DNA of 64,000 nt, taken from positions 13,101,700 to 13,165,699 of the forward strand of contig NC_088654.1 of the NCBI RefSeq assembly GCF_964019385.1, written 5' to 3'. Positions 13,266-60,650 of this stretch are shown here, in pieces (positions within the stretch are counted from its first letter, which is position 1; every line of letters starts with the position of its first letter). The notes below the pieces were generated by a model that saw nothing but the letters and a program-made list of their open reading frames with translations, did not search any database and was not told the origin of the DNA. Position numbers and translations under genes: made by a program. This DNA comes from Sycon ciliatum. Lineage: Eukaryota; Porifera; Calcarea; Leucosolenida; Sycettidae.

Positions 13266-13859
13266 TCAGTTCTCCTCATCTGATGTGCTTTCGCCTAGAT
13301 CCATCGGTTGCTCGGTCACTCGATAAACAATAGGTCCTTGTCGCTGAAGAACAGTGCATGGCAGCAGTATAGCAATATGGATAGATTCCACGGAGACCTT
13401 AATCTTCTCTCCAGGAAGTGTGCTCCACACTAGCGAAAAAGTCCAGACCCCGTCAAATGCGAAATGATGAGGTTGATCGGAAAACCGCGTCTCGAAGGCT
13501 GACTGCAGAACGGTGTGATCTGGTAACTCGCCAGTTGCTCCCGTACCGTACTTGAAGGGTCTTTTCTCAACGACATAGTCAAGGTCCATCCTAGAAATGA
13601 GGGTAATGATTGGAATAATATAAGAAGTACGATGAACATGGAATAGATTGCATCCGTGAACTTGCAGAACACACAATACGTCGTCGGTAAAGAGAGGCGG
13701 ACCCCATTGGACATTATCGGTGTACTCAGGCCAATTTGGAACGACCACCAGGGCGGTAATCGGATCCGTGATAGTATTAATCGAATCCGTCAGAATAGTA
13801 TTTATTATCAACGTACCTAAGAACTGTGGATCATGAAACGGTACTGGAAACACTGTCAT
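13266..13859 (-). CDS. uncharacterised protein family, copy 1 (197 aa)
   Basis: This is an intact single-exon ORF starting at an ATG (13,859-13,857) with an in-frame TGA three codons upstream. It has no signal peptide, no convincing transmembrane segment, and no family that I recognise. Motifs shared with the copies at 21,613 and 48,777 are WGPPLF (about residue 52), FxYGTG, TVLxxxF, WxFSLVW, SVESIHIAILLPCTV (about 158-172) and YRVTEQP near the C-terminus. It is the most diverged of the three and has an N-terminal extension plus an acidic tail (STSDEEN). The first bases after the stop also resemble copy 2. Retention of the frame despite strong divergence argues for selection on the protein. 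Alternating hydrophobic residues suggest a beta-rich fold (inference). Confidence 0.7.
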   Translation of the reverse strand: MTVFPVPFHDPQFLGTLIINTILTDSINTITDPITALVVVPNWPEYTDNVQWGPPLFTDDVLCVLQVHGCNLFHVHRTSYIIPIITLISRMDLDYVVEKRPFKYGTGATGELPDHTVLQSAFETRFSDQPHHFAFDGVWTFSLVWSTLPGEKIKVSVESIHIAILLPCTVLQRQGPIVYRVTEQPMDLGESTSDEEN

Positions 13860-14257
13860 CGTGAATCACTTATCTTGACCAGCAGCTGACTAGAATCCTT
13901 GACATTATGGACAAAACGTTCCCTCCAAACCAACACATTTTAAATATTCTTCAACACAGAGCAATTACTGAATTGTATTATTTTCCCCTTATATGAGAGA
14001 ATTCCCATATTTTCACACGGGAATTGGCAGTTTTTGAAAATGGCACAGTGATTCACGCAGGGTTGCGCCTCAATCGTTTTGCACTGTTAACGGCACTCAG
14101 TTTAAGAAATCCCAAGTTAAATTGGCAATTGTGTCGCTAATCATTATACTGTTGACCTTTGGTGTACATTTTCAATTCCTAAATTTCCACGAGAACCATA
14201 CCAAAGTCGCAGCACAGCAATGGAGCTATTTTATTCCCATACCTACGCAAAAGACGG
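13860..14257. other. unassigned DNA upstream of gene copy 1
   Basis: This could hold the promoter of the minus-strand gene. No TATA box or clear repeat stands out. Confidence 0.3.
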
Positions 14258-14502: not shown

Positions 14503-14518
14503 TTATTACCAACATCTA

Positions 14519-14562
14519 CCTTCACTGATGAGCTATGTATTAGCGAAACAGGTGCCTGAAGG
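14519..14562 (+). ncRNA. hammerhead ribozyme, probably inactive
   Basis: Stem I CCTTCA pairs with TGAAGG. The core CTGATGAG, stem II GCTA/TAGC closing a 5-base loop, and CGAAAC are all intact. The cleavage box reads CC instead of UH (GTC in the sibling at 21,067), which should impair cleavage. The downstream block (ATCAATATCGTCTACGGAAG) is shared with the minus-strand copy at 2,501. Confidence 0.7.
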
Positions 14563-14899
14563 AGTTTATCAATATCGTCTACGGAAGTGTCCTCGCAATG
14601 GTGATGGTTGTGTGCAGGAGAGTCTAGTAGGCTGAAGAGCGCAGTGTGATGGTGGAAGTGACTCAACATTTTCTTCAATGGCTGAGAGCTCTGTCGCACC
14701 CTGTAATAATATGATACGCGCGCCGTTAGCGTCAGAGCAAGAAGAGGGACAAGACGAGTCAAGGAACAATCCGGAGGACGCAATACCATACGACCTACTG
14801 TTTGTTTCTACCAGCGTTATTGTACCGTCGACACAGCTCTGACGACGATATACTAGGTGAATGCCGCGGGGCCTCCCAGCGTGTCAGCGGCAGTGGGTG

Positions 14900-14990
14900 A
14901 TGGTTTGCTGAGTGGAAGGTGCGACGGGCTCCTCGTGTGCTTCGGATGGCAGTCGTGAGTCAGTCAAGTGACAAGTTCGGCAAGCAGCAT
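14900..14990 (+). repeat. copy of the 8,905-9,458 repeat
   Basis: The translated block FAEWKVRRAPRVLRMAVVSQ matches the C-terminal part of the reading frame at 34,640-35,030, and GTGAGTCAGTCAAGTGA follows. Only this end is preserved here. Confidence 0.55.
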
Positions 14991-15239
14991 GTGTTCCTAG
15001 TTGGAACAATCAACTTCATGACTATTACCGCCGAAGTCGCAACTTCTAAGTTCATTAGATATCTCTTGTTTTTTTGTTTGTTTTTTCTTCTACAAAATCC
15101 ACATATCTCCAGACACTGGGGTGAATGATGGAGTGTGGTTGTGTGGCCCATTAAGCTCCGCCGACCAGAGTTGTCGTCGAAATGCAACCGTAGATTCCTG
15201 AGTGAAAGCACTGGATTTTTACTTAGTCAACAGAAGGTT

Positions 15240-15379
15240 AATTGAATTTCAATACACCATTAATAACCTTCCGAACTAAATATTGCGACAGAGCTTTCGG
15301 CCATATTTTCAATTCATTGCATTCCCAGCTCATCACAACCACGCGCTCTTCAGCCGAACCATACAGACACCAGCAATGT
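15240..15379 (-). repeat. ribozyme-bearing repeat, distal part
   Basis: The minus-strand sequence matches 21,120-21,215 (+), including CTTCAGCCGAACCATACAG read on the plus strand. The repeat is cut by a LINE at 15,380 and resumes at 17,049 with its hammerhead at 17,088-17,133. Confidence 0.7.
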
Positions 15380-17048
15380 TGGTTGGTTGGTTTTTATTTC
15401 ACTTCGCACATTCAAACGGGATGACGACCCAATAAAATGACGGCGAAGGCTTAGCCTAGAAGTGGCTATGGAAGAACATAGTAAAAGCTATGGAAGCACA
15501 TAGTAAGAGAATAGGATACTAATAACTGCGGGTAAACGGGGGGGGAGAGAGAGAATACGATGTATCTGTGATACTACGTGCGGGTTACTGAACTGCACGG
15601 GGAGGGAGAGCAGAGCGATCAGCAGCAACTCGAACTACTCCCTACAGGCGTATGGTACACATGCATGCTTAAACTCAGGTAGCCGGGTAATTGTGCGGAC
15701 CTCACCAGGGAGAGCGTTCCACAGCAGAGCACCAGCAACAGAAAATCTCCGCTGACCGCGGCGGCTACGGTTTGCCTGGCTTAGTAGGCCATTTGACTGC
15801 TGATGGCGGGTAGGGGTGCCTTGTGCCAGGGTCAGAAGCTGGGCGAGCACAGGGCTGGTGCGGGCGTTGATGCACCGCCAGATGGTGATCAATATTTTCT
15901 GCCTGTAGAGCTCGCTGACACGGTACAGGGAGTGAGCAGTGAGCAGCGGCTGTATGGCTGTCCGGGGCGGGTTGCCATCGATACAGCGGATGGCTCTGTT
16001 TTGCGTGGTTTGCAGTCGTTTCAGTTGACCCTCTCGCATTGCGGCTGAAAAACAGCAGGAGCCATAAAGCAGGTCGGGAATTAAGACCGCCTTCACATAC
16101 ACCTGACGAGAGCGTCTTGATAGGCTTCGGCGTGCCCGCCACAAGGCGCCAATTTTCTTGGCAACCTTGGTGACCACATAGTTTACATGGGTGTCCCAAT
16201 CTAGGCGATTGTCAAGGTGAACGCCGAGGTAGCGCGCAGAAGACGCTGAGGGGAGGAGACAGTCGCCGCTTTTGACTGTTACTTCCTGTACATGCTGCTG
16301 GGGAGAGATAGTCAGAACCTGGCTCTTGGTGGCGTTCAAGATAAGGCCTCGGGACTTCAGCCAACCGGCCAGAGCAGTTGCCGCTGTGGTGAGGGTTCTG
16401 GACGCTTCCGCCGCTGAGGCCTGGGAGTCGTACAGGGCTATGTCGTCTGCAAATTGTACACTTGGCACAGGCGAGGAAACCAAAGGGACATCGCGTGTGT
16501 ATATACTGAAGAGGACAGGGCCGAGAACAGAGCCTTGGGGCACTCCGCAGGTGCAAGCCAGAGCAGGGCTGGTTGAAGGCGAGATGAGGATCTGCTGCTT
16601 GCGGCCGGACAAGTAGTCGACGAACCAACTAAGGGCTTTTCCAGAAATTCCAACCGCAAGGAGGTCTTGAATTAACTTGTCGTGGTGCACTTTATCAAAA
16701 GCCTTCGACATGTCTAATAGGCACAGCCCTGTGGTCTTGCCACTGTCTCTCGCCTTCTGCAGATTATCAGTCAGCACACAGAGGGCGTCTTCCGTGGAAC
16801 ATTTCTTGCGGAAGGCAAATTGTGTTTCGGGTAATGCCTGGGTCAAGTCCAAATGACGAATTAACTGGTGTTGCACTACCCTCTCCAGCAACTTGGACAC
16901 TATTGGGAGAAGGGATACAGGCCTATAGTTGGTGGGGACTGATGGGTCACCGGCCTTGTACAGTGGCACGACAGACGCCAATTTAAATGCGGATGGAATG
17001 GTTCCAGTCCTCAGCGAGGTGCAGAACAGCACAGCAAGAGAATATGAA
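15380..17048 (-). mobile_element. 5'-truncated LINE with long open RT frame
   Basis: AGCAATG at 15,373-15,379 and 17,049-17,055 is the target duplication. The undisturbed repeat copy at 21,140-21,160 confirms the join. The 3' end carries a CCAACCAACCAA tail seen as TTGGTTGGTTGG at 15,380. The element starts inside the RT fingers, so the endonuclease is missing. The family is close to the LINE at 29,650-32,620. Confidence 0.88.
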
Positions 17049-17086
17049 AGCAATGTCACTTCCGTTGAGAGATAATATTGCTCCAT
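15635..17086 (-). CDS. LINE reverse transcriptase, open for 483 codons (chimeric start)
   Basis: The RT frame is open. It contains NYRPVSLLPIVSKLLERVV (about residues 53-71), LLDMSKAFDKVHH (motif A, about 123-135), CGVPQGSVLGPVLF (motif B, about 180-193), FADDIALY (motif C, about 213-220), RYLGVHLDNRLDW, YGSCCFSAA and the C-terminal LWNALPGEVR block. Roughly the first dozen codons (MEQYYLSTEVT) come from the ribozyme-bearing repeat into which the LINE inserted, so the apparent start is not the element's own. Motif residues are intact but the endonuclease is gone. Confidence 0.82.
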   Translation of the reverse strand: MEQYYLSTEVTLLSYSLAVLFCTSLRTGTIPSAFKLASVVPLYKAGDPSVPTNYRPVSLLPIVSKLLERVVQHQLIRHLDLTQALPETQFAFRKKCSTEDALCVLTDNLQKARDSGKTTGLCLLDMSKAFDKVHHDKLIQDLLAVGISGKALSWFVDYLSGRKQQILISPSTSPALACTCGVPQGSVLGPVLFSIYTRDVPLVSSPVPSVQFADDIALYDSQASAAEASRTLTTAATALAGWLKSRGLILNATKSQVLTISPQQHVQEVTVKSGDCLLPSASSARYLGVHLDNRLDWDTHVNYVVTKVAKKIGALWRARRSLSRRSRQVYVKAVLIPDLLYGSCCFSAAMREGQLKRLQTTQNRAIRCIDGNPPRTAIQPLLTAHSLYRVSELYRQKILITIWRCINARTSPVLAQLLTLAQGTPTRHQQSNGLLSQANRSRRGQRRFSVAGALLWNALPGEVRTITRLPEFKHACVPYACRE

Positions 17087-17087
17087 G

Positions 17088-17133
17088 CCTCTAGACAGCT
17101 GTTTCGCTCCCTGTCGGAGCTCATCAGTAGAGG
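17088..17133 (-). ncRNA. hammerhead ribozyme, complete
   Basis: On the minus strand, stem I CCTCTA pairs with TAGAGG; the core is CTGATGAG; stem II CTCC/GGAG closes GACAG; then CGAAA; stem III CAG/CTG with no loop; and cleavage box TC after G. All conserved bases are present. Short loopless stem III is typical of retroelement-linked hammerheads that work best as dimers. It is the twin of the plus-strand copy at 21,067. Confidence 0.85.
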
Positions 17134-17765
17134 ATGATAATGAAGATAATGAATGCAGCCCTTACAGTTGTGGAACAAGCGCGGTACCTGGGCGTAATGG
17201 TAGATGGGCAGCTCTCCTGGGAGCCTCACGTCAATCACACAATCCAGCAGGTGCGGAAGTCAGTAGGTGCGCTGTGGCGGAGCCGCCGAAGCCTCACCCT
17301 GGAGTCAAAGATCCTGTTTTACAGGTCGATGATCCAGGGTAGGTTGTCGTACGCTTCCAACGCCTTTTATCCGTCACTTCAAATTGGCAACATGGAGCCC
17401 CTCACACGTCTAACGAAGTGCGCTATCCGCGGCTTCTTCGGTCTGCCACAGTGGTCGCGCACGAGCCCGATCTTTGAACAGCTCCGCCTCACCACCCTGG
17501 AGGACATGTTTAACATTAAGCTCCTCATCTTTGTCCGTCGTTGTCTGTTCTCCCGAGCTAGCTCCCTCTTCACCAGCTTCTTCGTGAGAGTTACTGGTGA
17601 CCGCACTCGGGGAGCAGCACAACACCTCGTTCGAGTACCATTTTGGCCCGGTCCTGCGGGTCGAGCGACCATGCAGTTCATCGGCGCAGTCCTGTGGAAC
17701 CAGCTCCCGCCTGATCTCCGTTCCGAGCCCAGCCACCTTCAGTTCTGTGCCCTGCTTTAACCTTA
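17134..17765 (+). mobile_element. LINE C-terminal fragment (RT thumb onward)
   Basis: The frame at about 17,150-17,760 reads ARYLGVMVDGQLSWEPHVN, then a thumb/C-terminal region with YASNAFYPSL and ending near LWNQLPPDLR. RT catalytic motifs are absent. It directly abuts the ribozyme-bearing repeat at about 17,150. The stop at 17,758-17,760 is the natural C-terminus or close to it. Confidence 0.8.
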
Positions 17766-18873
17766 ATTTGGCCGTCACAAGAATTCAGCGTATTCTTGCA
17801 GTTGTTTTCTTTTGTTTCAGCTTGCATTGGACCAATTAAGCATGTTTATAAGTTTGAACTGAATATGTCCATGCGTTATGGAAATATTTATATGTTCCCA
17901 AAAGGGAACGTTGGCCGGATCGCGTACCAAAATGACCATGGTTTTTATGAAGGGAAGATGCAATATGATATAATGGATTATGTTGTCTTCTAAGTGTTTG
18001 TGGAGCAATGCAAACATGAACAAGCAGTGATGGAGAAGAAAAAAATATGTAATAGTCGTCAAAGAGTGTCCAGCAATGTTTCTTAGCGTTTTCGGCTGCT
18101 ACCGTTCGCGTCTCGTATACACCGTGGCATTCGATCCTCGATCGAAATGCCGCGTCCAACTCCACACTGAGAACAGTAACATATCGTGGTTTTTCTGCAC
18201 CATTTACAACGACATTGTGTTGTCCACATTCTTGTTGTCAAACGCGCTTGTATTGCACATCAACAGCAAGACACTGGTGCTTCTGGGCGCGGTCGGCTAT
18301 AATAAAATAGGACGGCGATCTCGGGATGAGCCTGGATGTAGGACATTGGCTTGGGGCTCACCGCTGCTTGAAAAATTGGCACTCTCAGATCAGTTGTAGG
18401 AATGTGGAGCCAGACAAAAAGAATTACAAGGAATCTCTCAAGATTGTCGGTCTCCGAGCTAATCTTGGCCTTGTCTGTATCGCGGGTATTGCGCAGTATT
18501 TACTCGTCCAATAGTGTTTAGAGATGTACAGGGTGTGTATATCTCGCGATTGGCAAGTGGGCGATGCTGTAGTGATCTCATGGTGATCGTGAAGGGATTT
18601 GTCCAGTTCAATTTCAGGACGCCTATCGTAAACACCAGTCTATTTCACCCAACGCGTTGTTCCAGCGGGTTGGCGTTTTTTTGCGGTCGTACTCACTATC
18701 AACAGGAAAGGCACCAACATCATTATCCTCTCCATTCGTCACGTGGTAGTGGTCTAGGTCCATATCTCTTGCAAGTTCGATGAAACCCTTATCATCCGTT
18801 GAATCATCTGATTACTACTCTATTTCAACGAGAAGTGGTGAGCACACATGCTCTTTCCCTGGGCACAGCAAAT
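17766..18873. other. unassigned DNA
   Basis: It contains a lone palindrome GTTCCCAAAAGGGAAC followed by GTTGGCC at 17,894-17,916, matching the termini of the MITE at 19,570-19,944. Short open frames here have no recognisable products. Confidence 0.4.
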
Positions 18874-19436
18874 TCACTGCATCAGAATCACGGAATCATT
18901 AGCACCATCCAGTTCTGAATTTGCAGTGCTCAGAGAAGGAGCAAGTGTGCTCACCACTTCTTTTTCGAGTTCCTGAGCTGCAGGATGCCTTACCCCTATA
19001 GCGCTTACGTTCAGATTGCCAGTAATCGGTGGCGCTAGGACTAAGTCTTGAAGTGTGTTGGAGTTCTCAACAATGTCCTTAGCTTCCATTAGAATCACTT
19101 TTGAGTCCCTTTCCAGAAAGGACTCTGCTACTGTAAACCTTTCCCTCTGCCATACCACATTACAGCTAAAGCGATATTTTCTGACAAAATGCAACAGCGC
19201 GGAGGAAAAATCATCGAAAGTCCAGGAGAACGCCATAAAGCATCCATACTTTGCTGAATATTGTTGAAGTGAATCTTGTTACACAAAAGAAAACCTACTT
19301 CAGAAGTATATTCCTTTGGAGACTGTTTAGCAATCTTTACTTTGGCAAATGTCAGCCTCGCACAGCATTGCTGTATTCCGCATGCTAGTGAATCACAAAT
19401 ATATGACCAAATTTGGTTACCATGGAGACGGTCCAA
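18874..19436 (-). pseudogene. unrecognised coding-like region, probably frameshifted
   Basis: Two overlapping minus-strand frames (19,436-19,128 and 19,236-18,874) read as one protein-like stretch if joined near 19,230: first LTFAKVKIAKQSPKEYTSEV with several Cys, then FDDFSSALLHFVRKYRFSCN and an acidic/Ser-rich tail. No family is recognised. It lies between copies of the GTTCCC palindrome, so it may be remnant transposon coding or a host exon. Evidence is composition only. Confidence 0.25.
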
Positions 19437-19569
19437 TTACCATCAAAACATCAAAAAGGCTCCATCAGTTATATATCCACGTTTACGGATGGTACAAACA
19501 AGGAATATGCGCTAGATATACTGGTTCCTGAAATCAGGTGAAAATGAGGTATATCTGGGTCTCGGATCT

Positions 19570-19944
19570 GGCCAACGTTCCCTTTTGGGAACATCGAAGA
19601 AAGATGGCGGGTTTCTATGTGCCATGATCAAATTTCCGGTGAATCTTCAGGCCAGTTGGGTGGCCATAGTAGCAGAGTGCACTTCTTACGTGTGGATTAC
19701 TCTGAGAAAGACTGTTTTTCACACCAGAATTCTCAATTTCTGAAGTACGGCCGAATACCGAAAATTCACGACATTTCGCGTTATATCCCGATACTTGAAA
19801 ATTTCAAAAGCCTGACAAATATTCCAAGATTCATGATCATCAGCCTTCTAGATATGTATATAAACAGAAAATACGGAGGAAAAATGAATTTCCCTTGACC
19901 AAATCGCATGCGGAAAGAAATGTTCCCTTTTGGGAACATTGGCC
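19570..19944. repeat. MITE-like element with palindromic termini
   Basis: Ends are GGCCAACGTTCCC at the left and the reverse complement of GGCCAATGTTCCC at the right. Each end includes a 16-bp perfect palindrome (GTTCCCTTTTGGGAAC) at 19,577-19,592 and 19,922-19,937. The 375-bp interior has no coding. No clear target duplication was found. Confidence 0.5.
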
Positions 19945-20099
19945 TGATTAAGGTTAAAGCGCATCATGGCTCCGTTTAAATGCTTTTCGGCTAGTGTGTT
20001 TCTGTGGTATAGCGGACTGAAGAATAGTAAACGTGTTTTGCAATATATGTATGAAGCTATTTTGTATATAGTATGTTCCCATTCCGTTTTTGCTTTGGT

Positions 20100-20261
20100 G
20101 TAGCCCTGAGGTTGATTGCTTATTTATTTCTACCCTTCCTCTCTCCATACTTCTGTCCCCCCCTCTCTCTCTCTCTCATTCCTTCTGTCGTCCACATGTA
20201 TCAAAGGAGGCGAAATCGCCTGTTTGTGGTGCGACGTTAAATAAACTTCTACAACAACAAC
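20100..20261 (+). repeat. LINE/SINE 3' terminal fragment with (CAA)n tail
   Basis: A CT-rich stretch is followed by AAGGAGGCGAAATCGCC, a hairpin-capable GGCGA/TCGCC pair, then GACGTTAAATAAAC and ACAACAACAACAA. This has the layout of a retroposon 3' end; coding sequence is absent. Confidence 0.5.
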
Positions 20262-21052
20262 AATGGAGGAATGATCATTCTTATACACCAGAAATGGCGC
20301 AAGTGTGCGCTTTCCACATTATATCAATGGCATATGCAAGCTGCTAAAATGGTAAAGTGTGAGAACAGCGATAAATAATCATAGTACGCGCATAGTACGC
20401 GCTCGTTGGTGGAGAAACACACCACACAGGCGACGAAAATCTTACGCGGAATACTGATGCCAATGGAAAGTACATGTATGTTGTTTATTATTATGATGCT
20501 GCAGGCGAGGTGAGACTCACCGCCGAGATCCCCCAACGCGACAGGCTCGGTTGCCGTTCAGGATTCACACCGACCTTTCCGCCCGTCAACAGGATCGACA
20601 GCGGGAGGCCCCACTGATGCCAATGTCGATGCACATCAGGAAACTTGTAGTCGTGAGTGTGATACTAACAGTTCTAGTAGCAACCACTGACACACGAGAG
20701 GCCAGCTGGGGCATTCACTCCAGTCAGGGATGCTTGGTCGACGCTTCGTATAAAGCAGCTCAGCTCAGTTTGATCAAACAAAGATGTTGCGGATGTGTCT
20801 TGCTTTTCTCCTTCCTTCTTCACCGACTCGGCTTGTCATCTCTCCTTCTTTCTTCACCGACTCTTCGTGTCCACTCTGCTCTGCCACTAACGGCGCATTA
20901 AAACTTCAGAACTAAATATTGCTATGATTATTAATTTTATCGCTGTTCTCACACTTTACCATTTTAGCAGCTTGCATATGCCATTGATATAATTATGTGG
21001 AAAGCGCGCACTTGCGCCATTTCTGGTGTATAAGAATGATCATTTCTCCATT
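20262..21052. repeat. fold-back element with ~120-bp inverted arms
   Basis: The arm at 20,262-20,384 matches the reverse complement of 20,922-21,052 with few differences, starting AATGGAGGAATGATCATTC at the left outer end. The interior (about 540 bp) is unrelated and encodes nothing recognisable. A hammerhead follows 15 bp after the right arm. Confidence 0.7.
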
Positions 21053-21066
21053 ATCATCATTATCAT

Positions 21067-21112
21067 CCTCTACTGATGAGCTCCGAACGGGAGCGAAACA
21101 GCTGTCTAGAGG
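21067..21112 (+). ncRNA. hammerhead ribozyme, complete
   Basis: Stem I CCTCTA (21,067-21,072) pairs with TAGAGG (21,107-21,112). Core CTGATGAG is at 21,073-21,080, stem II CTCC/GGAG closes GAACG, CGAAA follows, stem III is CAG/CTG without a loop, and cleavage is predicted after TC at 21,106. Every conserved nucleotide is in place. About 100 bp downstream is shared with the minus-strand copy near 17,050, so this is a mobile repeat and not a chance match. Confidence 0.88.
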
Positions 21113-21612
21113 CGTGGAGCAATATTATCTCTCAACGGAAGTGTCCTTGCTGGTGTCTGTATGGTTCGGCTGAAGAGCGCGTGGTTGTGATGAGTTGGGA
21201 ATGCAACCATTAATAACCGGCCAAAATAGTGTAAAGCTGCGACTTTGACTTGGTTTTCCCCACGAAACATCTATTTTCCAAAGCCAATTATAAGCAAGTA
21301 TTAGCAAAACAGATTATAGAGCGTGGATTTGTATTTTCCGAGAGCGTTTGGTGACAAAAGGTGATCTCAGCGCAATGTTCAGTGCAACCCATGGAGACTG
21401 TTCGCATCAGTGAAAAGTTTTACTCAGCCTTTCTGCGAGATATAGCGTGAATTTGCGGCATTTCTTCTACAAATCGGGAGGCAAAAAAGCAACAGCAAGC
21501 CTTTTGCTGTATTGTGAAGAAAGATACTTCGTGTGCAGATTTTGTCGAATAATCCATTCTGGATACCACGTCTGAATTTGGAATTGCCTGCAATTCAAAT
21601 CGCACATGAAAA
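21113..21612 (+). promoter_or_regulatory. repeat end, then conserved upstream region of gene copy 2
   Basis: From about 21,236 to 21,612 the sequence parallels 48,412-48,776, including TTTGACTTGGTTTTCCC and ATTCTGGATACCACGTCTGAAT shortly before the start codon. Conservation of about 380 bp ahead of two paralogues fits a promoter/5' UTR or simply the extent of the duplication. No TATA box was identified. Confidence 0.45.
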
Positions 21613-22167
21613 ATGGAGTATCCAGAACCTGAGTTTATAGGTGATACAATAATTACCGCCATTTTGGAATCTTTCGATTTCAGTGATCCCGACTGCAGCT
21701 TTCCGGGAGCCGAGGAATCGGACATTCCTTACCTATGGGGCCCGCCACTGTTTATAGCAAATCCGACCATTGTTATGCAGATCCACACTCATGACTCATT
21801 CTACTTCGATCGCACATCTACTGTGGATGGAATCCTCGACTTCATCGGTAACGATGTAATATTAGAATTTTCCTTGGATCTTGACAAATTCACGTATTCA
21901 TCTGGAATAAACAATGAGGAGACTGATTACACAGTTTTGCGGGTCAACTTCAAGGCATTCTTTCCTTACGGTGGACGTGAATTCGCGTTTGACTGGTTCT
22001 CCAACTTTTCACTAGTGTGGAACCGAAATGATAACGGCACGATGAGATTCTCTGTGGAGTCGGTGCATATAGTCATATTGCTACCTTGCACTGTTCAACA
22101 AAGACCAAGATCTGTTACATATCGTGTGACTCAGCAACCGACTGTCGGAATACCTGAGGAGAACTGA
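21613..22167 (+). CDS. uncharacterised protein family, copy 2 (184 aa)
   Basis: This is an intact single-exon ORF in a good start context (AAAATGG) with an in-frame TGA two codons upstream. It begins MEYPEPEFIGDTI, has an acidic stretch around residues 22-40, then WGPPLFIANPTIV (about 46-58), FTYSSG, ETDYTVLRV, FDWFSNFSLVW, SVESVHIVILLPCTV (about 150-164) and YRVTQQPTV. It is roughly two thirds identical to copy 3 by eye and less to copy 1. No signal peptide, membrane helix or known domain is seen. A conserved ATTAAA lies 128 bp after the stop. The function is unknown. Confidence 0.75.
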   Translation: MEYPEPEFIGDTIITAILESFDFSDPDCSFPGAEESDIPYLWGPPLFIANPTIVMQIHTHDSFYFDRTSTVDGILDFIGNDVILEFSLDLDKFTYSSGINNEETDYTVLRVNFKAFFPYGGREFAFDWFSNFSLVWNRNDNGTMRFSVESVHIVILLPCTVQQRPRSVTYRVTQQPTVGIPEEN

Positions 22168-36019: not shown

Positions 36020-36210
36020 GAAAGACAGAAACGGAAAAGTCTGAAGAAAAAATTGACTTTCATCTTCCTTCTCCGTTTTTCTTTCCTTTCACTTGCATCT
36101 TCCTCTCTGCTCTGTTTTATTTTCTCTTTTCGTTCGTCCCTCTTGATATTTGTACTTTGTACTGTTGAGGCAACGAACTGAAATAATATAAACCAACCAA
36201 CCAACCAACC
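36020..36210 (+). repeat. LINE 3' terminal fragment with (AACC)n tail
   Basis: The block TGAGGCAACGAACTGAAATAA ends in AACCAACCAACCAACCAACC. The same end occurs on the minus strand at 60,403-60,530 with an (AAACC)n tail. Confidence 0.65.
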
Positions 36211-36274
36211 ACCAGGACTCGAACCAGGGACCCTCGCTTGTAGCTAGCGATGCTCTAACCACTGAGCTATGGTG
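36211..36274 (-). tRNA. tRNA-like sequence (pseudogene or SINE head)
   Basis: The minus strand has a D-arm/A box TAGCTCAGTGGTTAGAGC, an anticodon stem TCGCT/AGCGA, and a T-arm/B box GGTTCGAGTCC. The anticodon loop lacks U33 and would read CTA, and the acceptor stem is poorly paired because the LINE's (AACC)n tail abuts its 3' side. It is therefore probably not a working tRNA, but the internal RNA polymerase III promoter boxes look good. Confidence 0.6.
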
Positions 36275-36924: not shown

Positions 36925-37637
36925 TTACGCAAGAATACATTTCATAATCCAACTTTCGTGTTTGGTAAACCTTGAAAGAATTAGCCTGACTCAAGTACTT
37001 TACTGATTCCTGGTTCTGGTCTCTGGTTTTATGCATGTTTACGTATGGGTCTCTGGATAAAGAAATGATATCAGAAGTCAATGAGGTGCCTGTGAACAGG
37101 GTTGTAGTGTTCTGCCAATTTCAATGCTTTTCGGGCAGAAGCCATCAGTTGTCCGAGCAATATCCATAGTTTGGTGTTTTCGCACATTCTCTAAGCACGT
37201 CCGACATGTTCCAGTGTTATGTTGTCGCTTGGTCGCTAGCCTATTATCGCAGTGCCCTTGTTTCATAAAGGATACAGCGCACTGTCTGTACCTGACGGGG
37301 AAACCATGACTCATGAATAATCACTCTTTTTTCCTTTTTTATCTCAGCTACAAAAGAGGAAGAAGACGTAAAAGGAAGAGAACAGGATTTTTTTGCTGAT
37401 TTAATTGAGAAAGGAGATGTGCGTAATAAGACAGGTGATCACCAATGTGTCTAGCAACTCAAATCTTTAATGGACTATACGACAAATCAGAACCCACAAA
37501 CAAAAATGATAAATGCTATATTGTATGTGTTGGAAAGGTTGAGGGAAGTTGCGTTCTCTCTCTCTCTCCTGCTCCTCTACTTTGGAGCGGGAGAGTTCTG
37601 TATTTATTGGACATGACGACTGGCTAGGATACTGGGA
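36925..37637 (+). other. DNA upstream of the intact LINE ORF
   Basis: It includes the probable 5' UTR of the element at 37,638. The true 5' end is not marked by a target duplication that I can see. A CT-rich run precedes the ORF at about 37,555-37,585. Confidence 0.35.
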
Positions 37638-40634
37638 ATGGGCGGAAGAAAGCCGAAGCGCAGGCCGTTTGCCGTAGGCAGCTTCAACGTCCGCGGGCTG
37701 AACTCAAATTTCCGTCAGGACGCTTTGCGACGCGACCTAAAAAGCTATCGTGTCGACTTGTGTTGTCTTCAGGAAACAAAGCTGACTGGCAGCCTTGACA
37801 CTGAGAAGGACGGCTATCGACTTATCGCCCTGGCACCTCAATGTCGCCACTATGGGCTTGCATTTGTTGTGTCGTCTTCGTTATCGTCGCCAATTCAGAA
37901 ATATTGGAGCTTGTCGGACCGAGTGGCTGTGCTGACTATCAACCTGCCTTCACGGGCGGGCAATGGAGGCACCAAGGCATCCACTCTCGCCATTATCAAT
38001 GTGTACGCACCAACGTTTTCGTTAGTTGCCCGCGACGCTGATAAATTGGACAAATTCTATTCCGACTTGAATAGTGCATATAATCAAATAAAATCGTCAG
38101 CTATCGTCCTCTTCGCTGGAGACTTCAATGCTAAGGTTGGGAAAAAGTCGGATGCAAGAGAAACATGTTGTGGGAGGCATGGTAGAGGGAAAAGGAACCT
38201 GAGTGGCCAAAGCCTGATAGACTTTTGCCATGCTGGTGACTTGTTCATCTGTAACACTGCCTTTCAGCATAATGCACGGCATGTGACTACTTGGACAGGA
38301 CATCGCAGGCATGGAGCCAGTGGAGCTACTGTTCCTGTGTATAACCAACTAGATTACGTGCTGTGTAAATCTACCCAGAGGCGGCTTCTCCTTGACAGTC
38401 GTAGCTTCCGTGGATGCACCCTCTCGTCTGACCACAGGCTCGTTGTTGCGCGGTTGGACCTCCAGAGGCTATATGGAATATTTGGACAGAGGAAGAAAGA
38501 TGATCTGCAGGCGCCTAAGTTCAACACATTCAAACTAGCCGAGGGACAAGTCCAAGAGGAATATGCTGAGAAGTTGGCCAGTGAGCTGCTAGCTGCCGAT
38601 CAGGTCCAAGGCAATACCGGCCTGCAGGAAAGATCCCGGAGGCTTATGGAAGTGGTCAGGAGTGCAGCAGGTGATGTCCTTGGCACAGTCCAGCAGAAAA
38701 CTCGTCGCAAAGCACCAGATCATGAAATTGAGCTGCTATCCCTGGAACAGAGATCACTGCGGATCAGCATTGGTAGCACTAACAACCCTGACACCAAAGC
38801 ATCTCTCAAGACGAAACGAAACAGAATCCTTCACGCTATAAGAACAAAATGCCGAGACAATGCAGAGAAAAGTATGCAAGAGAGAGCAGCGGAAGTCGAG
38901 AGGTTGAAGAATGGAGCACGGATGTTCAAAGCAGTCCAGCTGATGACCAGAAAGCCAAGCCGAAAGCCCATTGTACATGACCAGAAGGGTCGCTTCATAG
39001 CTGATGACCAGGAGGCGGCATCTACTGTCCGGAGCCACTTCCATGACCAGTTTCGTAGGAATGTGGATGCAGGCGTCGAGCTATTCACTGGTCGCCCAAG
39101 AAGCCTCCAAAGACAAATCTCATCTGCTGAGGTCTCCAATGCGCTGAAAAAACTGAATAATGGAAGATCCCCTGGCCCAGATGGAGTCCCAGGCGAACTC
39201 TTGAAATATGGAAGAGAAAACCTAGCACCTCACATTGCCTGTCTGTTCAACAGCCTGTTCACAACTCACCAGCTCCTTGACCTGGGATGTGGCACACTGG
39301 TACCTTTGCAGAAACTAGGAAAGACGGTTGGACCACCTGGAAATCTGCGCCCTATTGTCCTCCTTACATCATTACGCAAAACGCTCTCCATTATTACATT
39401 GCGAAGAATATCGTCGAAAGTCGGTGAGTACTTGTCTCCGACGCAGAGTGGTTTCAGAGCAGGCCGATCTACAGCGGACCTTGTTTGGAGCCACAGATGG
39501 TTTGCAGCAACATGTCAGCATTATCGGCGGGAAATGACCATTCTTGGAATCGACATGTCCAAAGCATTCGACTGTATACGTCGTGACAAACTGTTGACAG
39601 TTCCTGAGTCTTTCCTGGTGGAGGATGATGTTCGGCTGGTTAGAGTGCTGTTGACCAACACAACTCTGCAGGTACGCATCGGCAGGGCAGTATCAGAGTC
39701 CCTTGAAACTACAATTGGCACCCCGCAGGGTGATTCTCTCTCCCCGGTGTTGTTTGTTATATACTTAGAGGCAGCACTGAGAGATCTGAGGAGCACCCAG
39801 GTGGCACGAAACAGACCGCCAATGGATCAAAGCATCAACATTCCATTTGAGCTTGTCTACGCAGATGACACCGATTTCATAAGCCTTAATCGTCAATGGC
39901 TCACAGAGCTCGAACCGGTCATAGACCACACTCTCGGGCAGTGGGCCCTGAGAGTCAACAACACCAAAACTGAGTGGACAGAGCTGGGTCGATCTGTAGA
40001 CAGAATTGACGAGCGCTGGAGGACATCCCGAAAGCTGGGCTCACTCCTGGGCGACATTGAGGATGTGACACGTCGCAGGCAATTGGCCGAGGCTGCCTTC
40101 CGATCCATGTGGTCTCTTTGGAAGCGGCAAGGACTGATCCGAGAGCCTCTGCGTATGAGGTTGTACTGCGCCTTTATCATGCCGATACTTCTCTATAATT
40201 CAGGCACCTGGGGCCTGACGGTTGCTAGCGAACGCTCCCTGGACGCTTTCCTTAGAAGGCAACTCAGGTCACTTCTCGGCATCACATGGCCACAGAAGAT
40301 TAGTAATTTGGCGTTGTATGCCCGATGTGGAGTGGAGCCGGTGTCGGACTTGATCCCAAATTCACGCTGGAGCCTATTCGGGCATGTGCTTCGCCTGGGT
40401 AAGGACACGCCAGCACGATTGAGCATGGAGCAATACTTTCAGGCGCCCGAGGGGAGGTACCGTGGGAGGCCCAGGGTGACACTACCAATAAAGCTCCACA
40501 CCGATCTGTCCCAGTCGAACAATGGGCACCTGCGGAGTGTTGGGGACTTGCGCCGTCTGGAGCGGATTGCTGTGGACCGTCCAGCATGGAACGCGCTGGT
40601 GAAGAGTGTTTGTGCACACCCTCGTCACGAGTAG
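37638..40634 (+). CDS. intact LINE endonuclease-reverse transcriptase (998 aa)
   Basis: This single uninterrupted ORF has all catalytic motifs. The APE-type endonuclease spans residues 10-275 (FNVRG 16-20, QETK 45-48, GDFNAKVG 161-168, LDYVL 238-242, SDH 264-266). RT lies at about 490-760: GRSPGPDGVPGELLKYG, GIDMSKAFDCI (motif A, about 636-646), GTPQGDSLSPVLF (motif B, about 693-705), YADDTDF (motif C, about 741). The C-terminal part has GHVLRLG and RYRGRPR, as in RTE-like or related LINEs. The protein nicks chromosomal DNA and primes reverse transcription of its RNA. The ATG start fits the usual ORF length of about 1,000 residues. It is the only undamaged autonomous coding region in the window. 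Clade placement is tentative. Confidence 0.88.
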   Translation: MGGRKPKRRPFAVGSFNVRGLNSNFRQDALRRDLKSYRVDLCCLQETKLTGSLDTEKDGYRLIALAPQCRHYGLAFVVSSSLSSPIQKYWSLSDRVAVLTINLPSRAGNGGTKASTLAIINVYAPTFSLVARDADKLDKFYSDLNSAYNQIKSSAIVLFAGDFNAKVGKKSDARETCCGRHGRGKRNLSGQSLIDFCHAGDLFICNTAFQHNARHVTTWTGHRRHGASGATVPVYNQLDYVLCKSTQRRLLLDSRSFRGCTLSSDHRLVVARLDLQRLYGIFGQRKKDDLQAPKFNTFKLAEGQVQEEYAEKLASELLAADQVQGNTGLQERSRRLMEVVRSAAGDVLGTVQQKTRRKAPDHEIELLSLEQRSLRISIGSTNNPDTKASLKTKRNRILHAIRTKCRDNAEKSMQERAAEVERLKNGARMFKAVQLMTRKPSRKPIVHDQKGRFIADDQEAASTVRSHFHDQFRRNVDAGVELFTGRPRSLQRQISSAEVSNALKKLNNGRSPGPDGVPGELLKYGRENLAPHIACLFNSLFTTHQLLDLGCGTLVPLQKLGKTVGPPGNLRPIVLLTSLRKTLSIITLRRISSKVGEYLSPTQSGFRAGRSTADLVWSHRWFAATCQHYRREMTILGIDMSKAFDCIRRDKLLTVPESFLVEDDVRLVRVLLTNTTLQVRIGRAVSESLETTIGTPQGDSLSPVLFVIYLEAALRDLRSTQVARNRPPMDQSINIPFELVYADDTDFISLNRQWLTELEPVIDHTLGQWALRVNNTKTEWTELGRSVDRIDERWRTSRKLGSLLGDIEDVTRRRQLAEAAFRSMWSLWKRQGLIREPLRMRLYCAFIMPILLYNSGTWGLTVASERSLDAFLRRQLRSLLGITWPQKISNLALYARCGVEPVSDLIPNSRWSLFGHVLRLGKDTPARLSMEQYFQAPEGRYRGRPRVTLPIKLHTDLSQSNNGHLRSVGDLRRLERIAVDRPAWNALVKSVCAHPRHE

Positions 40635-45429: not shown

Positions 45430-46578
45430 GCGCACAAGCTGTGCAGTGATAGGCGCGTACATACATAGGTGTGCAGTGATAGGCGCGTACATACATGTAG
45501 GTGTGCAGTGATAGGCGAGTACATAGGTGTGCAGTGATAGGCGCGTACATAGGTGTGCAGTGATAGGCGAGTACATAGCCATAGGTGTGCAGTGATAGGC
45601 GAGTACATAGCCATAGCCATAGGTGTGCAGTGATAGGCGTACATAGGTGTGCGGTGATAGGCGCGTACATAGGTGTGCAGTGCTAGGCGCGTACATAGGT
45701 GTGCATTGATAGGCGCGTACATAGGTGTGCAGTGATAGGCGCGTACAGAGGTGTGCAGTGATAGGCGAGTACATAGGTGTGCATTGATAGGCGAGTACAT
45801 AGGTGTGCAGTGCACTAGTGATAGGCGAGTACATAGGTGTGCAGTGATAGGCGCGTACATAGGTGTGCAGTGATAGGCGCGTACATAGGTGTGCAGTGAT
45901 AGGCGAGTACATAGGTGTGCAGTGATAGGCGCGTACATAGGTGTGCAGTGATAGGCGCGTACATAGGTGTGCAGTGATAGGCGAGTACATAGGTGTGCAG
46001 TGATAGGCGAGTACATAGGTGTGCAGTGATAGGCGAGTACATAGGTGTGCAGTGATAGGCGAGTACATAGGTGTGCAGTGATAGGCGCGTACATAGGTGT
46101 GCAGTGATAGGCGCGAACATAGGTGTGCAGTGATAGGCGCGTACATAGGTGTGCAGTGATAGGCGAGTACATAGGTGTGCAGTGATAGGCGACTACATAG
46201 GTGTGCAGTGATAGGCGAGTACATAGGTGTGCAGTGATAGGCGAGTACATAGGTGTGCACTGATAGGCGAGTACATAGGTGTGCAGTGATAGGCGAGTAC
46301 ATAGGTGTGCAGTGATAGGCGAGTACATAGGTGTGCAGTGATAGGCGAGTACATAGGTGTGCAGTGATAGGCGAGTACATAGGTGTGCAGTGATAGGCGA
46401 GTACACAGGTGTGCAGTGATAGGCGCGTACATAGGTGTGCAGTGATAGGTGAGTACATAGGTGTGCAGTGATAGGCGAGTACATAGGTGTGCAGTGATAG
46501 GCGCGTACATAGGTGTGCAGTGATAGGCGAGTACATAGGTGTGCAGTGATAGGTGAGTACATAGGTGTGCAGTGATAT
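45430..46578 (-). repeat. 26-bp minisatellite inside one LTR (~44 units)
   Basis: The plus-strand unit is AGTGATAGGCGAGTACATAG plus GTGTGC. The partner LTR has only about two to three units (47,965-48,028). Because 26 is not a multiple of three and the unit has no minus-strand stop in any phase, all three minus frames stay open, giving spurious ORFs of over 400 codons built from HCTPMYSPITAHLCTRLSL-like repeats. These are not genes. Confidence 0.92.
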
Positions 46579-46929
46579 GAAGGCAGAAGAAGGTGTAACA
46601 GTTACACCATCCCCCTCCTCTCCATTGTGCACAACACAATGGCATGAAATACTTAAGAACACAAGTCGAGCAATGTTTCTTCCGAACTCGCCCTTGAGAA
46701 AATTCCGCTTAATCAAAACTCGGGTGTGCCTTTGCATACTCAGTGATCCAATATTTCCTCCACAATAAACCCTGTTGTGCCGTCCAAATCAGTAGTAGGC
46801 GGCTCAGGCGGCTGGCGGCGCCCATGAATTGCGTCCGCTTCGTATGGTTTCAGCGCGGTTACATTGAACACAGGGTGGCAGTGTAAGGTTTTCCGCGGGT
46901 TAGGCGATATGCATTGTCATTACCTGACT

Positions 46930-48059: not shown

Positions 48060-48776
48060 CATACTAGCTTCCATTTTGCTAAAACCGTCCGGATCTCTCT
48101 CGTCGGCAAACAATGCACGGAAGCAAAAATTATTATAACAACCGTGGGATTCAGAACGATAGCACTGGATTATTACTTGTTCTTGAACAGATGGTTAATT
48201 CTATTTGAATACACCTCACCCTCGCCGTTAGGCGCTGCATCTGCCACCCTGGTATTACAGGCACGGTGGTGGCCTGGCACATGCGAAACTTCCTAAGCTG
48301 GTTGTGTTTCTCAACGGAATTGTATAGCCGGTGGTAACGCGGACGTGCAAACAAACTTTTCTTTTTTTTACACCGTAAGTAAGCCGCCAAATCAGTGCCC
48401 AGTTACGATTTTGACTTGGTTTTCCCGAGAATCATCTATTTCCAAAGTCGATCATGAGCAAGTATTAGCAAAACAGTTCAAAGAGCATGGCCATGTATTT
48501 TCGGCGAGTGTTTGATGACAAAAAGTGACCTCAGCGCCATTTTCAGTGCCACATTAGAGACTCTTCGCAAGGGTGAAAATGTTTGACTCAACTATTCTGC
48601 GAGATAAGGCGTGAACTTGCGGCTAATCTCTTACAAAACGTGAGCCAAATAAGCAACAGGGATCTGTTTATTGGATTGTGATGAAAGAGATTTCCTGTGC
48701 AGATTTTGTGGAATGATCGATTCTGGATACCACGTCTGAATTTCGATTTGGCTGCCGTTCAAGTAGCATATAACAA
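48060..48776 (+). promoter_or_regulatory. flank and conserved upstream region of gene copy 3
   Basis: From about 48,412 to the start codon the sequence parallels 21,236-21,612 upstream of copy 2. The part before that contains GTTAGGCGCTGCATCTGCC, a possible diverged relative of the SINE-like element at 24,285. No core promoter was identified. Confidence 0.45.
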
Positions 48777-49319
48777 ATGGAGTATCCAGATCCTCACTTT
48801 GTAGGTGAGACGATACTTGATGGCATTGAAGATTTTTTTAACAAAAACTCAATTGATGGCGACTTCAGCATGGATGGACGTCAGGAATCAGCCATTCCTT
48901 ACGAATGGGGTCCGCCACTGTTTACGGCAAATCCAACCATTGTTACTCAGATTCACACTCCTGGCTTATTCTACTTAGATCGTACATTTATTCTGGAAGA
49001 TAGACTCAAGTTCATCTGGGACGTTACGATGAGCGAATTTTTCACAATGATGGACACCTTCACGTATGGAACGGGAGAAAGCCATGAGGAGACTGATTAT
49101 ACAGTTCTGCGGGTCGACTTCAAGGCATTCTTTCTTGATCATGGACAAGAACTGGCCTTTAACTGGTTCTCCAATTTTTCACTAGTGTGGAATCCAAATG
49201 ATGACGGGAAGATGATATTCTCTGTGGAGTCGGTGCACATAGTTATATTGCTACCTTGCACGGTTCAGCACCGACCAAGATCTGTTACTTATCGTGTGAC
49301 TGAGAACCCGACTGTCTGA
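48777..49319 (+). CDS. uncharacterised protein family, copy 3 (180 aa)
   Basis: This is an intact single-exon ORF; the ATG has A at -3 and G at +4, and an in-frame TAA lies two codons upstream. It begins MEYPDPHFVGETILDGIEDF, then WGPPLFTANPTIV (about residues 43-55), FTYGTG, ETDYTVLRVDFKAFF, FNWFSNFSLVW, SVESVHIVILLPCTV (about 152-166) and YRVTENPTV. It lacks the IPEEN tail of copy 2 because its stop comes earlier. Most substitutions relative to copy 2 are in the N-terminal third and the middle; the C-terminal half is nearly constant, which suggests a functional core there. No known domain is recognised. Confidence 0.75.
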   Translation: MEYPDPHFVGETILDGIEDFFNKNSIDGDFSMDGRQESAIPYEWGPPLFTANPTIVTQIHTPGLFYLDRTFILEDRLKFIWDVTMSEFFTMMDTFTYGTGESHEETDYTVLRVDFKAFFLDHGQELAFNWFSNFSLVWNPNDDGKMIFSVESVHIVILLPCTVQHRPRSVTYRVTENPTV

Positions 49320-60329: not shown

Positions 60330-60650
60330 GCAATAAGAGCGAGGGAGAGAGAGAGAAAGAGGGAGAGAGAAATAGAGCGAAAAAGGTTTCTAAAAAATGT
60401 ACCTGGTTTGGTTTGGTTTTTTATTATTTCAGTTCGTTGCCTCAACAGTACAAAGTACAAGTATCAAGAGGGACGAACGAAAAGATAAAATTAAACAGAG
60501 CAGAGAGGAAGATGCAACTGAAAGCAAAGGAAAACTGAGAGAAACGGAGAAGGAATGTAGACTGGGCGGATTCATGAACCATTACTAGAGAGAAACGGAG
60601 AAGGAATGTGGACTGGGCGGATTCATGAACCATTACTAGAGCAGGGCAAT
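60330..60650 (-). repeat. LINE 3' end and a tandem 54-bp duplication
   Basis: The minus strand carries the TGAGGCAACGAACTGAAATAA end with an (AAACC)n tail (GGTTTGGTTTGG at 60,403). At about 60,538-60,645 a unit containing GAGAAGGAATGTGGACTGGG occurs twice. A GA-rich run lies at 60,338-60,372. Confidence 0.6.

Follow-up and report, generated by a model that had tools for sequence, protein, structure and literature searches.

The stretch of Sycon ciliatum DNA analysed here (the window, 64,000 nucleotides; C13:13,101,700–13,165,699) contains two type I hammerhead ribozymes (HHRs), at 21,067–21,112 on the plus strand and at 17,088–17,133 on the minus strand, which belong to a dispersed repeat termed family A in the following. 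Both are composed of stem I (CCUCUA/UAGAGG), CUGAUGA, a stem II of 5 bp, GAAA, the stem III sequence ACAGCUGU without a loop, and a GUC site. The characteristics of type I are thereby present in the sequence: the CUGANGA and GAAA core, three helices, an open stem I, and an NUH site. Cleavage would be predicted between 21,106 and 21,107 (+) and between 17,094 and 17,093 (−). A preliminary description of the window had reported complete type I HHRs at these two places, and its positions and anatomy agree with the sequence.

Chance does not explain the HHRs, since the pattern CTGATGAG-N6..30-CGAAAC occurs three times in the window (14,525 +, 17,101 −, and 21,073 +) and has no match in 100 shuffles. 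In the covariance-model search proposed in the preliminary description, Hammerhead_HH9 of Rfam (RF02275) matched both motifs, scoring 28.3 bits at 17,072–17,148 (−; E 0.0065) and 23.1 bits at 21,055–21,128 (+; E 0.29). This support is weak because both scores lie below the gathering score of 52. The word "complete" needs qualifying, as predictions do not have a monomer forming the loopless stem III. Instead of the hammerhead, the predicted minimum-energy fold of the monomer pairs the core CUG with CAG. Two strands are predicted to co-fold as a double hammerhead at −46.1 kcal/mol (monomer, −20.3 kcal/mol), and a dimer is the only form in which stem III is predicted to be completed. This stem is a loopless 8-nt palindrome in family A, in the related family B, and in two further families of the genome with units of 352 and 591 nt.

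The two HHRs are the arms of a single inverted, head-to-head insertion (15,269–21,206; Table 1) and not the separate copies proposed before. Independent copies were rejected. The pieces in the window are consecutive in the family A unit (U, see below), apart from a few shared bases, and are flanked jointly by one 12-bp target-site duplication, CCATTAATAACC. This string occurs only twice on the plus strand of the window, both times flanking the insertion. The BLAST alignment of the left arm extends to U57, inside the duplication. Two later insertions, which look derived from long interspersed nuclear elements (LINEs), split the left arm. One holds a reverse transcriptase (RT)-like frame (15,635–17,161, −) and has the short repeat ACATTGC at both junctions; a 75% match to 31,279–31,086 begins just past its junction. 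The other has a frame for an RT C-terminus (17,131–17,760) and an (AAC)n end at 20,261. The flanks of the family A element are approximately 76% and 80% similar to 48,139–48,214 and 48,380–48,569, two pieces 166 nt apart that represent a diverged relative without the element. The motifs at 14,519 and 2,501 had been described as mutated members of the same ribozyme family. They are indeed decayed, but are assigned to the separate family B, an intact HHR of which exists elsewhere in the genome (locus L033). The copy at 14,519 keeps CTGATGAG and CGAAA, with the cleavage triplet GTC replaced by GCC, and matches L033 in two parts (14,510–14,711 at 95%; 14,726–14,903 at 89%). In the copy at 2,501, GTC is retained and the core carries mutations (CTGATTAA, CGCAA).

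Table 1. Parts of the family A insertion and copies of family B in the window (U, 846-nt unit of family A)
Feature	Position	Strand	Basis
Family B remnant, HHR at 2,501 with mutated core	2,464–2,562	−	L033 match, 90%
Family B copy, HHR at 14,519 with GCC site, continuing into the next unit	14,510–14,903	+	L033 matches
Target-site duplication, left copy (12 bp)	15,257–15,268		exact string
Left arm, 3′ part and tail (U787–846, then U1 to ~U49)	15,269–15,376	−	alignment to U
Later insertion splitting left arm, RT-like frame, LINE-type by eye	15,377–17,046	−	frame, junctions
Left arm, HHR part (U689–791), HHR 17,088–17,133	17,049–17,151	−	Rfam, sequence, alignment to U
Later insertion splitting left arm, at least partly LINE-type	17,152–20,261	+	frame, junctions
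Left arm, upstream part (U31–692)	20,262–20,922	−	90.6% identity to U
Right arm without tail (U571–846, ending at site 1), HHR 21,067–21,112	20,922–21,206	+	94.4% identity to U
Target-site duplication, right copy (12 bp)	21,207–21,218		exact string

The genome (538 Mb, 313 contigs) was searched with a 154-nt query (21,053–21,206), which was found at no fewer than 42 places, most at 99% (40 of 1,067 candidates scored). Twenty loci (L009–L028) served as the discovery set. One of them, L024, contains consecutive head-to-tail units of 846 nt, identical at 844 of 846 positions and with one HHR each, from which unit U was defined. A 40-mer across the HHR, with up to three mismatches, counted 541 family A HHRs genome-wide (control: 0). 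The earlier proposal of a mobile ribozyme-bearing repeat holds. The body of the element, previously left unassigned, can now be described as a head-to-tail unit of approximately 846 nt with a Penelope-like manner of insertion; the shared flank of about 100 bp reported earlier is merely what the two later insertions left contiguous. Head-to-tail pairs, expected in the preliminary description at 0.5–1.5 kb, do exist: among the matches listed, 12 of 14 same-strand neighbours are 835–851 nt apart. Listed matches are the first 100 places of each HHR search, and all pairing and orientation counts given here rest on these. The ATG within the family A HHR opens a frame that stops after 61 amino acids, in which no Pfam domain was found. 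Neither a long open frame nor a protein with RT and GIY-YIG domains was found in unit U, so family A is not an autonomous Penelope-like element (PLE). A search of a phage collection gave no match, and a satellite interpretation of family A was rejected.

The arms of family A insertions have a fixed orientation. Among the matches listed, opposite-strand neighbours less than 2.5 kb apart are arranged minus-plus in 18 cases and plus-minus in none; the corresponding numbers are eight and zero in the 352-nt family, and five and one in a mixed HHR listing, where the plus-minus pair joins two different HHR families. This order places the RNA 3′ ends outward. The outer ends map to two places in the unit, U838–860 (site 1, approximate) and U39–57 (site 2), and the arm ending at site 2, the tail arm, reaches about 45 nt further 3′. 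Exactly one tail arm was present in all 26 evaluable two-ended family A insertions, including the window copy. In the discovery set, 13 of 13 independent evaluable insertions have one tail and one non-tail end (L009, L011, L012, L013, L014, L016, L017, L018, L019, L021, L022, L023, and L028; L010 duplicates L009 and was not counted, and L020, L024, and L025 were not scorable). In a test set of 15 loci preselected by HHR orientation alone, the rule applied to 11 of 11 evaluable insertions, the loci L075, L084, L085, and L089 running off the stretch. A third set (nine loci from a listing favouring internal copies) had a single evaluable insertion, L097, which also fits. Given a free choice at even odds for each end, this outcome would have a probability of 1.5e-8 in the 26 insertions and of 4.9e-4 in the test set by itself. 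The two-site pattern recurs in three of four insertions of the 352-nt family (ends at 272–276 and 310–316; L030, L036, and the L053–L058 array) and in four of five of the 591-nt family (ends at 548–561 and 578–584; L029, L037–L042, L045, and L047). PLE-associated dimeric HHRs and tails are already known; the strict one-tail rule was not found in the open literature searched.

Among 41 arms, six differ from the length of a single unit by 28 nt at most (818–865 nt; L014, L018, L076, L080, and L081). They possibly represent one lap of a circular RNA, which we regard as a lead only. The arms in L012, L014, L015, L021, L022, and L027 begin near U447–467, perhaps an RNA 5′ end or a start site. The notion that cDNAs terminate where the HHR cleaves was not supported: junctions at U741 in L016 and U751 in L021 lie near U744/745, and the other junctions are spread.

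Clear target-site duplications were present in 20 insertions (median 12.5 nt), which were oriented with the tail arm to the right. A G directly follows the tail-side copy of the duplication in 17 of the 20 (background 0.18, p 1.4e-10), whereas a C precedes the other copy in nine (p 0.003), and these two counts differ (p 0.019). The insertion flanks contain approximately 70% A+T. At L011 (C9:29,763,500–29,768,500), the family A insertion lies in an (AAT)n tract adjoining a PLE reverse-transcriptase frame.

Family A is part of a large HHR population. A looser HHR pattern matched 7,530 times in the genome, compared with 14 times for the same pattern read backwards. In 32 of 35 distinct motif strings among the matches listed, all three inner positions of stem II are paired, and native stem II arm combinations pair more often (12/15) than swapped ones (31/210). 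Pairing is thus held while the letters change, indicating covariation of stem II across families. At 35.4 bits, the 352-nt family lies above the Rfam cut-off of 34 bits for type I, with six matches in L053. The first 7 Mb of contig C1 contain at least 10 HHR types, and tandem units there measure 228, 237, 352, 591, and 747 nt. The 352-nt family alone accounts for 1,014 HHRs at up to two mismatches.

We interpret family A, with a probability of roughly three in four, as a non-autonomous, Penelope-like HHR retroelement for which both cut strands of the target prime on their own RNA sites. The PLE-type features on which this is based are the tandem and inverted head-to-head copies, the short duplications (approximately 12–13 bp), AT-rich targets, a loopless HHR of the dimer type, and two 3′ ends separated by an optional tail of 30–45 nt. 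Tandem units of approximately 846 nt would be transcribed, and two HHRs of one transcript could join through stem III, the 8-nt palindrome, for cleavage in dimeric form, releasing unit-length RNA that may become circularised. A PLE-type RT/GIY-YIG endonuclease, presumably supplied in trans, would make a staggered cut with a 3′ overhang of 12–13 nt in AT-rich DNA, and the 3′-OH ends of both strands would serve as primers for reverse transcription from fixed internal positions of the RNA. Copying would begin at site 1 (~U846) for the strand with the cut immediately before the G, and at site 2 (~U49), about 45 nt further 3′, for the other strand. The two cDNAs, variably truncated and sometimes several units long, would then be joined head to head, mostly with 0–4 nt of overlap. 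For the specific version in which this division between the strands is fixed, the cuts lie 12–13 nt apart, each complete insertion receives one tail, and some templates are HHR-made circles copied in whole laps, our confidence is only slightly on the favourable side. Frames with GIY-YIG or RVT_1 domains of PLE type are present in the genome. According to the passages of PMC11167929 drawn on here, an Anolis PLE has two neighbouring internal RNA sites from which reverse transcription begins, with the tail between them, and both DNA strands are cleaved and extended in vitro. Its open reading frame begins at the ATG of the HHR, with start sites 111–118 nt into the frame (PMC11167929); the start sites of family A lie approximately 136 and 180 nt past the corresponding ATG.

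The head-to-head arrangement, which is the rule in family A, would also fit priming from a single DNA end followed by self-priming of the cDNA to give a hairpin-derived structure, the model favoured for bdelloid Penelope in the cited part of PMC3846280, where the tail is optional on one inverted pseudo-long terminal repeat (pLTR). The arms within one insertion are 97.5–99.8% identical in the cases measured, as self-priming would predict. However, arm lengths and unit numbers are unequal within an insertion, junction overlaps are short, and in all 26 insertions the two outer ends occupy different fixed sites, a constant 45-nt offset for which self-priming offers no reason. Fixed, different outer ends together with unequal arms favour two primers; the one-tail rule discriminates between priming from both ends and self-priming, and the latter appears improbable for family A.

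An ordinary metazoan retrozyme, that is, a small circular RNA cleaved by its HHR and inserted at one DNA end by a LINE or PLE reverse transcriptase to give head-to-tail arrays, would account for the array at L024, and a circular template could explain the six arms close to a full unit. Arrays of this kind seem to exist in the genome: HHR arrays of 228 and 237 nt are one-sided, end 49–53 nt after the HHR start, and lack an inverted arm in the five insertions seen. Family A is nevertheless unlikely to be one, because its unit of approximately 846 nt lies outside the 170–400 nt described in the retrozyme passages of PMC7229834, its stem III is loopless, and its insertions are two-ended with tails; the word "inverted" is absent from PMC7229834. 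Inverted arms and target duplications also resemble the terminal inverted repeats of a fold-back or miniature inverted-repeat transposable element (MITE)-like DNA transposon, in which the HHR motifs would be incidental. Arms that are unequal, vary in their breakpoints, and run into further tandem units, ends that alternate between tail and no tail, and the existence of one-ended copies make this explanation very hard to accept.

Several observations weigh against a Penelope-like origin with priming from both strands. One-ended insertions occur (L015 and L027 with a tail, L026 without), the non-tail ends of L079 and L080 lie 43–52 nt before site 1, and L043 (352-nt family) and L046 (591-nt family) do not fit the two-site pattern. 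Judged by eye, the cut ends show no accumulation where the HHR cleaves. The G preference was counted in the one set of insertions in which it was noticed, after 24 positions had been inspected, and L097, within a TTG repeat, has no G after its duplication. An autonomous PLE with family A ends was not found in a search with the 61-amino-acid frame (150 of 1,006 candidates scored; longest frame 202 amino acids), the PLE loci compared for shared ends being 5′-incomplete. Nine stretches with a PLE hit or next to one gave no HHR in Rfam; HHR-like strings upstream of PLE frames in L063, L064, and L071 match by pattern only, with no Rfam support. In the Anolis experiments reported in part in PMC11167929, the start sites are equal on top and bottom strands in vitro, and HHR mutants leave insertion unaffected, so HHR cleavage may be dispensable. 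The dimeric form of the family A HHR, finally, is a prediction of co-folding alone.

Other features of the window include three related frames of approximately 185 amino acids (13,266–13,865, −; 21,610–22,167, +; 48,774–49,319, +), which have no Pfam match and have relatives among Sycon transcripts. The protein encoded at 21,610–22,164 matches scpid110414 with 97% identity over 63%, the scpid numbers denoting Sycon ciliatum in the part of PMC6526912 cited here. At 37,617–40,634 (+), an open LINE-type frame of 1,005 amino acids was found, relatives of which carry RVT_1 and exonuclease-type domains. A tRNA-like match (36,208–36,273, −; 36.2 bits), a possible short interspersed nuclear element (SINE), lies beside an inverted repeat that recurs at 60,418–60,540, and 45,445–46,600 is a long array of a 26-bp tandem repeat. 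Elsewhere in the genome, a full-length GIY-YIG match is located within a 652-amino-acid frame (L059) on the small contig C291. This frame presumably resembles bacterial UvrC, and the contig may be bacterial. With hundreds of young copies whose ends are readable, family A makes the question of PLE integration testable from sequence.

Dimeric cleavage is reported for small PLE-associated HHR variants (Lunse, Weinberg and Breaker, 2017). Going by the title of that work only, these variants share with family A a minimal stem III, the PLE association, and an expected dimer. The 2024 Anolis work describes the later steps of PLE integration as not yet validated in the passages considered (PMC11167929). 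In the same passages and those of PMC3846280, Penelope/Poseidon PLEs share several features with family A: a frame that starts at the ATG of the HHR, copies in tandem and in inverted head-to-head order, AT-rich targets, and two internal sites for the 3′ ends, separated by a tail of 30–45 nt. The duplications of known PLEs are 8–10 bp long there, compared with approximately 12–13 bp in family A, and family A differs in its short unit without RT or endonuclease. It also has the tail on exactly one arm of every evaluable two-ended insertion, whereas the tail is described as optional in bdelloids (PMC3846280). With the non-long-terminal-repeat (non-LTR) retrozymes of metazoans, as presented in the retrozyme passages of PMC7229834, family A shares a type I HHR, tandem units, and a non-autonomous nature; those elements have a looped stem III and no inverted arms are described in these passages, whereas family A is larger and two-ended. 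A search of the accessible literature on Porifera and Amphimedon found no report of HHRs in sponges, its sole match being one unrelated review. For Acropora millepora, more than 6,000 HHRs in 16 families are given in the same part of PMC7229834. Should the sponge origin of the element be confirmed, a sponge joins the HHR-rich genomes.

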